Assembly (NCBI GenBank): GCA_902521075.1
Contig: CABYQM010000005.1
Span: 1 to 64,000 of the forward strand
Origin: an uncultured Pelagibacteraceae bacterium
GTDB taxonomy: Bacteria; Pseudomonadota; Alphaproteobacteria; Pelagibacterales; Pelagibacteraceae
Length of the DNA stretch: 64,000 nucleotides
Direction: 5' to 3'
Positions 31,171-34,439 of this stretch are shown piece after piece (position 1 is the stretch's first letter; every line of letters begins with the position of its first letter). The position numbers were made by a program, and so were the translations under genes. Below the pieces are notes generated by a model. That model was not told the origin of the DNA. It did not search any database and worked only from the letters and a program-made list of their open reading frames with translations.

Positions 31171-31493
31171 CATATTTAGTCAATGATAAATGTATAAAAT
31201 GCAAACATACTACATGTGTAGATGTGTGTCCTGTTGACTGTTTCTACGAAGGGAAAAATATGCTTGTAATTAAACCTGATGAGTGTATAGATTGTGGCGT
31301 TTGTGAGCCTGAATGCCCAATCGATGCTATTATTTCAGACACAGAAACAGGAAGTGAAAAATGGCTAGAGATTAATAAAAAATATTCTGAAATATGGCCA
31401 AATATTTCAGAAGCAAAAGAACCTTTGCCAGATCACGAAAAATTTAAAGATGAAGAAAATAAGTTTGATAAATACTTTGAAGAAAACATTTAA
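31167..31493 (+). CDS. fdxA: 7Fe ferredoxin (FdxA family)
   Basis: Ferredoxin of 108 residues of the Azotobacter FdI-like type with one 3Fe-4S and one 4Fe-4S cluster. The cysteine pattern is [18 protein letters not shown] in the first half and [12 protein letters not shown] in the second. The C-terminal extension (after about residue 57) is typical of the family. The start is GTG at 31167-31169, overlapping the TerB stop. It serves as a low-potential electron carrier in the cytoplasm. The last 44 bases overlap the proposed start of carD in another frame. Confidence 0.95.
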
Positions 31494-32307
31494 AAAAAAT
31501 AAATCTGTTAACAAAAAAAAATCATTAAAATCATCACCAAAACCAAAAAAAACTAAATCTATTACTAAACCGAAAAAAGTAAAAATTGAAAAAAAACAAA
31601 AAAAAACAATCATCCAAAAGAAAATAATTAAGTCAAAACCAATTAAAGCTGAAAAAAAAGCAAATTCTGAAGCGAGTTCTAATTTGCTCAGAATACCTAA
31701 AAGTAATGAGCAAAAACCAGAAATCAAAAAAGTCAAGAAACAAGATACAGAAAAAAAAGAGTATAAAATTAAAGATTATGTTGTTTATCCAAAACATGGG
31801 GTTGGTCAAATCACAGAATTTAAAAAAATGAATATAGGAGGAATTGATATAGAAACTTATATTCTGAAATTTGAAAAAGATAAGGCAAGTGGAATGGTGC
31901 CTGTCAATAAACAATCGCACTTAAGACCCTTGGCTACAATTAACCAAGTTAATAAATGTATTAGTATTTTAAAAAGTAAACCTAAAATAAAAAGAAGCAT
32001 GTGGAGTAGAAGAGCTCAGGAATATGAAGCTAAAATTTCGTCTGGTAAAATTTATGATTTAGCTGAGGTCGTTAGAGATCTTAATAAAGGAGACGATTTA
32101 ATGGTTGATCAATCATATAGTGAAAGACAATTATTCGAAAAAGCTTACGAAAGAATACTTTCCGAGTTTCAAATAATTTTAAATATGAGTGCAGAAGATA
32201 CCCAAAAAAAGCTAGATAAAGCTCTTAAGAGAAATCTAGAGAAACAAATACAAAAAATTGAAACGAAGCAACCGGGTGAAGAAGTTTCCGAAGAAATAGC
32301 TAAATAA
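31450..32307 (+). CDS. carD: CarD-family transcription regulator with Lys-rich N-terminal extension
   Basis: RNA polymerase-binding regulator of 285 residues that helps stabilise promoter open complexes. The CarD/CdnL domain begins near residue 103 ([20 protein letters not shown]) and continues with the C-terminal helical part ([27 protein letters not shown]). The first 100 residues are low-complexity and very rich in lysine. The ATG at 31450 lies inside fdxA; in-frame TTG codons at 31465 and 31477 are alternatives and would keep nearly the whole extension. It is the last gene of the helicase-TerB-fdxA unit and converges with the microprotein gene terminator. Confidence 0.9.
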
Positions 32308-32344
32308 AAAAAACGCTTCCCACGCAAGCGCCATGAGAAGCGTT
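32306..32344 (-). terminator. Rho-independent terminator of the Lys/Arg microprotein gene
   Basis: An 8-bp perfect stem (AACGCTTC at 32312-32319 pairing with GAAGCGTT at 32337-32344) is followed on the minus strand by eight T (32306-32313). It lies 22 bases after the microprotein stop. The T-run side shows that it serves the minus strand. It overlaps the carD stop codon on the other strand. Confidence 0.85.
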
Positions 32345-32366
32345 ATTTAATAAAAAGAATACTAGA

Positions 32367-32450
32367 CTATCTTCTTTTTTTCTTTTTAGCTTTTTTCTTA
32401 GCTTTTTTCTTAGTTTTCTTTTTAGCAGCTTTTTTTCTTCTTTTAGCCAT
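32367..32450 (-). CDS. 27-residue Lys/Arg-rich microprotein (H1-tail-like)
   Basis: A 28-codon frame, ATG at 32448-32450 to TAG at 32367-32369, encodes a peptide with 16 Lys, 4 Arg, 5 Ala, 1 Thr and Met. Its middle repeats a four-residue unit (KKKT, KKKA, KKKA). A strong Shine-Dalgarno AGGGAG sits 6 bases before the ATG. A TTGACA promoter, a leader hairpin and a terminator complete a stand-alone gene. By composition it should bind nucleic acid, like an isolated histone H1 tail or a ribosome-associated basic peptide; that is inference. It is too short for most gene finders. It faces carD, whose product also has a Lys-rich tail. Confidence 0.72.
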   Translation of the reverse strand: MAKRRKKAAKKKTKKKAKKKAKKKKRR

Positions 32451-32472
32451 CTTTAGCTCCCTTTTTTTAATT

Positions 32473-32491
32473 ACGAATCTTTTTGATTCGT
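32473..32491 (-). promoter_or_regulatory. Leader hairpin of the Lys/Arg microprotein mRNA
   Basis: A perfect 7-bp inverted repeat (ACGAATC at 32473-32479, GATTCGT at 32485-32491) with a 5-base loop lies between the proposed promoter and the Shine-Dalgarno. Its position close to the 5' end suggests an mRNA-stabilising stem. On the plus strand it is followed by a T-rich stretch (32500-32516), so it could also terminate read-through from carD. Confidence 0.5.
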
Positions 32492-32502
32492 TTAATTACC
32501 TT

Positions 32503-32531
32503 TTTTTATTTTTTTTGAATAGTTATGTCAA
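32503..32531 (-). promoter_or_regulatory. Candidate promoter of the Lys/Arg microprotein gene
   Basis: A consensus -35 TTGACA (minus strand, 32526-32531) is followed after 17 bases by TAAAAA (32503-32508). Transcription would start about 45 bases before the ATG, just upstream of the leader hairpin. The stretch 32524-32546 can also fold as a weak hairpin plus T-run on the plus strand (stem TTATGT/ACATAA). Confidence 0.5.
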
Positions 32532-32634: not shown

Positions 32635-34344
32635 TTAATTATAAAGTTTTTCAAAGTTATTTTTATATTTATTTATAATTTTATATCTTTTTAACTTTAA
32701 TGTTGGAGTTAACATTCCATTTTCAATTGAAAATTTTTCTTTGATAACAAAAAATTTTTTAATATTTTCTATTTTTGAAAGATTATTATTCAAATTATCT
32801 ATTGCATTTTGAATTTCTTCATTTTTAATATCGATAAATTCATCGTTTAAAACTAATAATGCTACTAAATATGGTTTATTGTCTCCATAAACTATCGATT
32901 GCTCAATAAATTCTAAATTTACTAATTCATTTTCAATTTTTAATGGAGAAATATTATCTCCACCAGGAGTGATGAGAATATCTTTTTTTCTGTCAGTAAT
33001 TTTTAAAAAATTATTTTCAAATACTCCAATATCTCCTGTATGAAGCCAGCCATCTATTAAAACTTTTTCGGTTTCTTTTTGATTGTTCCAATAACCCAAC
33101 ATTACATTTTCACCTTTTACCAAAATCTCACCATCTGAAGCAATTTTTACTTCATTTCCCTTAAATGGTGGACCAACCGTATCTATTCTTATATCATCTA
33201 TTGGATTACAACTTACAACTGGAGAAGTTTCTGTTAAGCCATAACCTTGTAAAGTTGGTAATCCAATAGCATTAAGAAAATATCCAACTTCTTTATCTAA
33301 TGCACCTCCACCAGAAACAAATGTTTTAAGAGATCCACCAAATTGTGACTTTATTTTTTTTCTAACCAATTTCTCTAAAATACTATCCTGTATTTTTTCA
33401 TATAAATTTAATTTTTCTTTTTTTATTTTTTTTAGACCTAATTCTAACATTTTAAATATTAATTTTTTTTTCAATCCTTTAGCTTTTTTAAAACTTGCAT
33501 TAATTTTTTGATAAAGATTTTGATAAAATCTTGGTACAGCTGTCATAATCTCTGGCGAACAATCGCCCATATTTTTTAATAATTTATCGATGCTCTCTGC
33601 ATAAAAAATTCTAGCAGCTACAGTAATTTGTACAAATTGAACAGTATGCTCATATGAATGTGAGAGTGGAAGCCAAGTAAGAAACCTGGGTTGTTGATTA
33701 GTTAATAATGGTTTTAGAATATCTATTGCACCCTCGCAATTATTTAGGATGCCTCCATGACTTAAAATCACTCCCTTGGGATTTCCTTGCGTACCCGAGG
33801 TATAAATTATGCAAGATGGGTCTTTTCTTAAGGCTAAAGATTTGTGAATTGGTAAATCTTTTTTATTATTTTTTTTTATTAAGTCTTCTAAATTAATATA
33901 CTCAAATTCAATATTTGGTAATTTATCAAAGGAAAATATTTTTTTTATAAATTTTTTGTCCTTAATAATGTTTTTTAATTTATTGAATTGTGCAATGTTT
34001 GAAACAAAAATTATACTGGGAGTACAATCATTGATAATATAATTATAGTCATTTTCTGCATAAGTTGTGTAAGCTGGAACAGTTATTCCATCTGATAACA
34101 TAATAGACAAGTCTGCAATAAACCATTCTGGTCTATTTTCAGAAATTAATAAACATCTATCACCTTTTGATATTAATTTTCTTAATTCATTGGAAACTAA
34201 ATTAATAAAATCGTAGGTTTCTTGCCAAGAATAATTTTTTCTTTTATCACCTAAAGTTGATAATAAAATTTTATTTTTATCAATTTGTTTATTGAATTGA
34301 TCAAAAAATAATTCAGTCAAATTATTAATTTGCTTTAGGTTCAT
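32635..34344 (-). CDS. Long-chain acyl-CoA ligase / AMP-binding protein
   Basis: ANL-superfamily ligase of 569 residues that activates fatty acids to acyl-CoA. Motifs: IIYTSGTQGNPKGVILSHGG (ATP-binding loop), GYGLTETSPVVSC, GWLHTGDIGVFENNFLKI and the hinge DRKKDILITPGGDNISP. The length and the N-terminal pattern (YSWQETYDFINLVSNELR) fit long-chain ligases of the FAA1/FadD15 subgroup. The start is placed at ATG 34342-34344 (MNLKQINN); a longer frame to 34362 would enter the 3' end of tRNA-Leu, so it is not accepted. Confidence 0.9.
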   Translation of the reverse strand: MNLKQINNLTELFFDQFNKQIDKNKILLSTLGDKRKNYSWQETYDFINLVSNELRKLISKGDRCLLISENRPEWFIADLSIMLSDGITVPAYTTYAENDYNYIINDCTPSIIFVSNIAQFNKLKNIIKDKKFIKKIFSFDKLPNIEFEYINLEDLIKKNNKKDLPIHKSLALRKDPSCIIYTSGTQGNPKGVILSHGGILNNCEGAIDILKPLLTNQQPRFLTWLPLSHSYEHTVQFVQITVAARIFYAESIDKLLKNMGDCSPEIMTAVPRFYQNLYQKINASFKKAKGLKKKLIFKMLELGLKKIKKEKLNLYEKIQDSILEKLVRKKIKSQFGGSLKTFVSGGGALDKEVGYFLNAIGLPTLQGYGLTETSPVVSCNPIDDIRIDTVGPPFKGNEVKIASDGEILVKGENVMLGYWNNQKETEKVLIDGWLHTGDIGVFENNFLKITDRKKDILITPGGDNISPLKIENELVNLEFIEQSIVYGDNKPYLVALLVLNDEFIDIKNEEIQNAIDNLNNNLSKIENIKKFFVIKEKFSIENGMLTPTLKLKRYKIINKYKNNFEKLYN

Positions 34345-34352
34345 ATATTTTT

Positions 34353-34439
34353 TGGTGGGCAAAGAGAGAATCGAACTCTCACAGTATTGCTACTATTGGA
34401 TTTTGAGTCCAACGCGTCTACCAGTTCCGCCATTCGCCC
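34353..34439 (-). tRNA. tRNA-Leu (anticodon CAA)
   Basis: Class II tRNA of 87 bases with encoded CCA (34353-34355). The acceptor stem pairs GGGCGAA with TTTGCCC (one G-T pair). The anticodon stem TTGGA/TCCAA closes the loop CTCAAAA, giving CAA, which reads UUG. The long variable arm contains the stem typical of leucine tRNAs, and the T loop is GTTCGATTC. It lies 8 bases upstream of the acyl-CoA ligase start on the same strand, so the two may share a transcript that is processed. Confidence 0.97.

Follow-up and report, generated by a model that had tools for sequence, protein, structure and literature searches.

The window, a stretch of 64,000 nucleotides from an uncultured Pelagibacteraceae bacterium, carries opposite the 3' end of carD a gene for a Lys/Arg-rich microprotein, and comparison among relatives gives good support that this is a real protein gene distributed throughout SAR11. 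The best explanation of the gene, which we hold at about even probability, is that it encodes a minimal histone H1-like nucleoid polycation under replication-linked GcrA/CcrM control, with a stem-loop at the 5' end of its mRNA. SAR11 bacteria count among the most numerous cells of the ocean. Although their genomes are very compact, this tiny gene has been kept with a full set of signals, and it is kept in both sampled families of the order.

The gene and its conservation in SAR11

An earlier reading of the window from sequence only had described a complete stand-alone gene with a TTGACA box, a 7-bp leader hairpin, an AGGGAG ribosome site and a terminator with eight T, and all of these signals were recovered where it had placed them (Table 1). 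The stand-alone character was also supported, and the frame is kept in relatives. The encoded protein, with 20 basic residues among 27, is the product of the sole ATG ORF in the 64-kb window that has at least 20 aa and at least 60% K/R, and such a basic ORF occurred in none of 100 first-order Markov sequences of 64 kb. At gathering scores, Rfam matched two tRNAs only in the window.

Table 1. Features of the microprotein gene and its neighbours, in window coordinates
Feature	Position	Strand	Basis
27-aa Lys/Arg-rich microprotein ORF, MAKRRKKAAKKKTKKKAKKKAKKKKRR	32367..32450, stop included	-	ORF reading; frame conserved in relatives
Shine-Dalgarno AGGGAG	32457..32462	-	sequence; GGGAG in 121/127 loci
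Stem-loop ACGAATC-AAAAA-GATTCGT, 7 bp, near predicted mRNA 5' end	32473..32491	-	sequence
Near-invariant CGAATCA heptamer (TGATTCG on +), GcrA-type GANTC site	32484..32490	-	126/127 loci
Second GANTC site (GATTC on -), 3' arm of dyad	32475..32479	.	
Promoter: TTGACA 32526-32531, 17-nt spacer, TAAAAA 32503-32508	32503..32531	-	TTGAC in 124/127 loci
Intrinsic terminator, 6 GC pairs in stem, then 8 T (TTTTTTTT)	32312..32344	-	
carD (CarD_TRCF_RID + CarD_C), convergent neighbour	31450..32307	+	domain matches
AMP-binding acyl-CoA ligase gene, upstream, same strand as microprotein gene	32635..34362	-	ORF and domain match

It is conservation, beyond the signal scans, that supplied the decisive evidence and confirmed the status of the gene. 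The terminator, with 13 pairs counted, has the longest stem of the five terminator-like sites found in a 15-kb scan, a number not above shuffles (mean 4.1), while the promoter is absent among the 60 listed of 96 sigma-70-like sites (95 expected from shuffles); its TAAAAA box breaks the scan's rule of a T at position 6, which puts this promoter outside the scan criteria. Among relatives, a hairpin with a T-run was scored 3' of the gene in 124 of 127 loci, the misses being L108, L125 and L129. A leader peptide or attenuator was rejected, since carD, which follows on that side, is convergent and the unit ends in a terminator of its own. Nor was antisense control of carD supported, the T-run of the terminator ending at the carD stop codon. 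In CarD, about 100 Lys-rich residues precede the RID domain as an N-terminal extension (window 31450-31762 (+); Pfam match at 105-161). The best CarD matches are Pelagibacteraceae records, in agreement with a SAR11 origin of the window.

Loci were found through CarD as an anchor, the opposite strand being read beyond the carD stop. In a first set of 85 usable loci, comprising the window, 29 genomes of the same genus and 55 named Pelagibacteraceae/Pelagibacter records, the microprotein ORF is present in all 85, and in the subset of these loci that was measured, 52-70 nt separate its end from the carD stop. In other Pelagibacteraceae genera it is intact in 42 of 43 usable loci, which brings the family total to 127 of 128. 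L128 has GTG as its start codon, and in L129 the start is present and the frame is broken. Before counting, L056 (contig ends inside carD), L199 (131 bases) and L111-L118 (loci already counted) were excluded, and the 30 of 147 family genomes without a carD match were left out of the survey; the two collections may share species, so that the counts are of loci and not of independent species. The sequence-only reading had held that loss of the frame among relatives that keep the promoter and terminator would point to a small RNA instead; the frame was intact at 127 of the 128 usable loci, and an ORF of this kind opposite carD was found SAR11-wide.

Length differences among relatives are whole codons. 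The identical protein MPKRRKKAKKAKKKAKKKAKKRRRR occurs in 26 loci and is encoded by 10 DNA versions, stop codon included, and in the 25-aa class (13 distinct DNAs) the codon changes along a minimum spanning tree are 10 synonymous and 1 nonsynonymous. Over all length classes, nonsynonymous changes are more numerous (158 vs 113 synonymous), and the synonymous share of 42% compares with 18-20% expected under equal base changes, an excess that is less clear if transitions dominate. Asp and Glu are found in none of 49 distinct proteins, nor in the other script-placed ones except L129. A small non-coding RNA with a fortuitous frame would suit the shortness of the transcription unit and its possession of both promoter and terminator; however, frame, start, Shine-Dalgarno sequence and charge are all kept while the DNA changes, which contradicts that reading and makes it barely credible.

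At 53 other alphaproteobacterial carD loci (24 in L058-L081 and 29 in L151-L179), no similar ORF was found; L157 among them has a short basic ORF of another kind, and L070 and L078 have Arg-rich frames. This range limit outside SAR11 concerns carD loci only, and a relative relocated away from carD would escape it. At L153, a Lys/Ala-rich stretch lies just upstream of the carD match. Direct peptide search matched 8 of the 147 family genomes, all in the window's genus; matches were few because the query is short and of low complexity, and anchoring by carD was therefore needed. The class-wide search with the longer, 85-aa form described below (0 of 190) was uninformative, with the known carriers G000 and G009 also missed.

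Histone H1-like form of the product

The microprotein is 20-58 aa long across Pelagibacteraceae; for the window's genus and the named records the length is only 22-35 residues, made up of K/A/R repeats. Its basic share has a median of 75% over 127 loci. Genus g12 (5 loci) has forms of 34-58 aa built of PAKK or AAPKK units, and the sister family has an 85-aa form (MEELKVIFAKARKKAKKKAAPKKKRKAAKRKPAKKK...) with AAPKKK/KPAKKK repeats, which lies on the opposite strand beside carD in all four loci fetched, all from one genus, behind the same leader as in Pelagibacteraceae (4/4 loci). Proteins from different genera repeatedly show basic ends of the type MAKRRKK..RRRR. The likeness to an isolated H1 tail, proposed from the 27-aa form alone, is strengthened by the longer AAPKKK/PAKK-repeat versions, and judged from the sequences the short form seems to be what is left of an H1-tail-like protein after reduction, if the direction of change is read correctly.

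The C-terminal tail of the eukaryotic linker histone H1 has a KKAKKKA/PAKK composition, and the likeness of the microprotein to it is compositional; unlike a eukaryotic linker histone, the microprotein is bacterial, has 27 aa and is devoid of a winged-helix globular domain (no Pfam match). It also resembles chlamydial Hc2 (HctB) and Bordetella BpH1, which have Lys/Ala-rich repeats and vary in length by in-frame repeat number, as has been reported for Hc2 (165-237 aa; PMC2848022). The SAR11 protein differs from Hc2 in length, with 20-58 aa in Pelagibacteraceae and 85 aa in the sister family, and has no Pfam match. With HU and IHF it shares a putative nucleoid role, and an HU-type leader in the sister-family genome G147 has the same promoter pattern, whereas the HU/IHF model Bac_DNA_binding (PF00216) is unmatched by the microprotein. 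When the 27-, 36-, 58- and 85-aa forms were compared with Pfam-A and NCBIfam at E up to 10, no relevant family was matched, and the protein is therefore not filed as Hc2, linker histone or HU. It was likewise unmatched in PDB at E up to 10, where a short low-complexity query is insensitive. K-rich composition by itself cannot establish homology or target.

In 126 of 127 loci, all but L129 with its broken frame, the longest tryptic peptide has at most five residues, so that ordinary proteomics would miss the microprotein; a protein of this kind is also too short and too low in complexity for family searches. An earlier description of the gene was not found in the open-access literature, subscription papers and supplements lying outside the scope, and the word carD is absent from the main text of PMC2704228. 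If its role is confirmed, the gene would show how small an H1-like DNA compactor can become. To our knowledge, the SAR11 microprotein would then be the smallest H1-like chromatin protein known.

The CGAATCA element and its promoter

The 7-bp leader hairpin is present as first described, but that description was incomplete, for it missed a near-invariant GANTC/GcrA-type site that is locked to the promoter. CGAATC is found in all 127 leaders (127 out of 128 loci, the start of L184 not having been placed by the script), as the heptamer CGAATCA in 126 and as CGAATCG in one. The distance from TTGAC to CGAATC is 39-42 nt in all 124 leaders that are long enough, being 40 or 41 nt in 118, and 39 nt in the four sister-family loci; the three leaders without TTGAC (L038, L084 and L105) are contig ends with 51-73 nt of upstream sequence. 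Between CGAATC and the start codon the distance is variable, at 36-58. Near-constant spacing to the box together with a floating distance to the ATG ties CGAATCA to the promoter, where it stands at about +5 of the predicted transcript, counted from the predicted -10 and with a transcription start site (TSS) that is itself a prediction.

CGAATCA is the reverse complement of TGATTCG and fits GANTC with the YGAKTCK extension. Related bacteria use methylation motifs of this sort for the cell-cycle timing of genes. For C. crescentus, TGATTCG/YGAKTCK has been reported as the extended motif through which GcrA activates, the site lying within -40 to +40 of the TSS, while in Brevundimonas the extended motif is not preferred, except slightly for C before GANTC, and the authors warn that the motif alone is no effective proxy for GcrA regulation (PMC7987155). 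A fully symmetric DNA operator was rejected as a general rule, because the 5' heptamer is in 126 of 127 leaders and a close GATTC (at most 16 nt after CGAATC) in only 92; 28 of the 127 leaders have a single GANTC within 95 nt upstream. The exact dyad CGAATC-N2-8-GATTCG occurs once, at the microprotein gene, in each of four genomes of the window's genus and in none of four others, and the reversed dyad used as a control matched in one genome only, G078. The combined pattern TTGACN{33,38}CGAATCA gave nine matches in nine genomes, at the microprotein gene in eight plus one HU-type gene site in G147, vs three matches for its reversed control; the microprotein gene of G078, with CGAATCG, escapes the pattern.

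The putative reader and writer of such a site are both encoded, with GcrA (PF07750) and the CcrM-type domain RAMA (PF18755) each above cut-off in 8 of 8 SAR11 genomes; among 14 control genomes, RAMA was found only in Caulobacter, and the GcrA model in Caulobacter and the archaeal Sulfolobus. GANTC is depleted in the window (91 vs 183 expected, first-order Markov), owing to GAATC and GATTC. Such depletion has been reported for alphaproteobacterial genomes with CcrM, SAR11 being among the carriers of CcrM homologues (PMC3973325), and GANTC in Pelagibacter was reported to be methylated with an origin-terminus gradient, for which the authors propose a cell-cycle role (PMC9516812). The microprotein promoter is thus like the Caulobacter GcrA/CcrM promoters (ctrA P1, ftsZ, mipZ) in having GANTC near the promoter and both genes present in the genome, and unlike them in that the site is downstream of the predicted TSS and the target is an H1-like microprotein. 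In C. crescentus, the GANTC sites of ctrA P1 and podJ P2 precede the TSS, at -29 and -24 (PMC4287350), unlike the +5 predicted here. If confirmed, the microprotein gene would be a concrete GcrA/CcrM target in a lineage, Pelagibacter, that has been reported without ctrA (PMC2877005).

Outside the window's genus, GANTC sites also occur at HU-type genes. In G147 the combined promoter and motif pattern precedes the start of an HU-type gene by 25 bases. When the best PF00216 match per genome was taken, all four SAR11 genomes from outside the window's genus had CGANTC in the HU-type leader, 17-31 nt ahead of the start codon (L209, L211, L215 and L216), vs GANTC in 0 of 4 HU-type leaders within the genus. 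Among the other HU/IHF-type leaders, GANTC within 100 nt was found in 1 of 12 (12 of the 15 remaining matches were fetched). The HU/IHF-type genes, three in 7 of 8 genomes and two in the incomplete window genome, are located elsewhere than the microprotein gene. These leaders hint at a nucleoid-protein regulon in some lineages, where co-regulation would be partial and the number of genomes is small.

Nucleoid role and rival readings

In the preferred reading, the likeliest role of the microprotein is to neutralise nucleic acid and compact it, above all in the nucleoid and together with HU and IHF. GcrA and the methylation state would probably switch transcription as the replication fork passes, the microprotein being made in step with DNA when GcrA occupies the promoter or when the promoter DNA is hemimethylated, and the very short message would probably be stabilised by a 5' stem-loop that the same dyad forms in the mRNA. 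For the microprotein we infer DNA binding, GcrA binding, timing, mRNA stabilisation and expression strength alike. The bolder form of this reading, which we put forward tentatively and with more doubt than belief, is that the microprotein is one of the smallest H1-like chromatin proteins, with its synthesis coupled to the replication fork through GcrA reading CcrM methylation, like S-phase histone synthesis, and with HU co-regulated outside the window's genus. Were the coupling to the fork true, it would be a bacterial parallel to S-phase histone synthesis.

The main rival is a ribosome- or RNA-bound role, in which the basic peptide would sit on rRNA or mRNA instead of DNA, in a manner comparable to the small basic ribosomal proteins bTHX, bL37 and eL41. 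The short forms, at 20-27 aa and with a median of 75% basic residues over 127 loci, have a size and charge in keeping with this, and the basic MAKRRKK..RRRR ends recurrent across genera fit it as well. However, a range from 20 to 85 aa by repeat number is unusual for a ribosome-fitted part, and the GANTC/GcrA-type promoter, common to the HU-type gene of G147, points to the chromosome. The PDB search gave no sequence match, but is insensitive for so short and low-complexity a query. We regard this role as unlikely, while deserving serious attention. Far less probable is a polyphosphate-granule protein in the manner of the H1-like AlgP of Pseudomonas, which the microprotein resembles in being H1-like. 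AlgP has been tied to polyphosphate granules (PMC9239181), whereas PPK1 (PF02503), the only polyphosphate kinase looked for, had no match in any of the 8 Pelagibacteraceae genomes searched; it was found in the one sister-family genome tested (G147:C2:217500-218030).

The conserved element might also be an mRNA feature only, namely a message-stabilising 5'-terminal stem-loop in which GANTC is coincidental. Several leaders of g2-g4 have GATTTG as the 3' arm, which keeps the pairing through G.U and loses GANTC, and in g5, g7, g9 and g12 a different, longer hairpin is predicted, with 97% of cells paired over 13 sequences and 6 two-sided changes vs 1.5 in shuffles; the pairs with a two-sided change (2) and the pair types (4) are within the shuffle range, and the structure was derived from folds of the same sequences. 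Against pairing as the sole cause, CGAATCA stays near-invariant even in these four groups, although the predicted fold leaves CGAA largely unpaired there, so that pairing does not explain it, and besides, its spacing is locked to the -35 box and the heptamer equals the published GcrA motif (PMC7987155). The mRNA-only account is accordingly considered improbable, though it merits consideration. The two views of the element, as a DNA site and as a 5' stem-loop, can be compatible, and both are part of the preferred explanation of a GcrA/CcrM-controlled nucleoid polycation.

In leaders L131, L133-L137 and L195-L198 (g7, g9 and g12), CTCCAAA lies between the hairpin and the Shine-Dalgarno sequence. 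As judged from its letters, CTCCAAA could mask the ribosome site by pairing with GGAG, which would allow a possible translational control in g7, g9 and g12.
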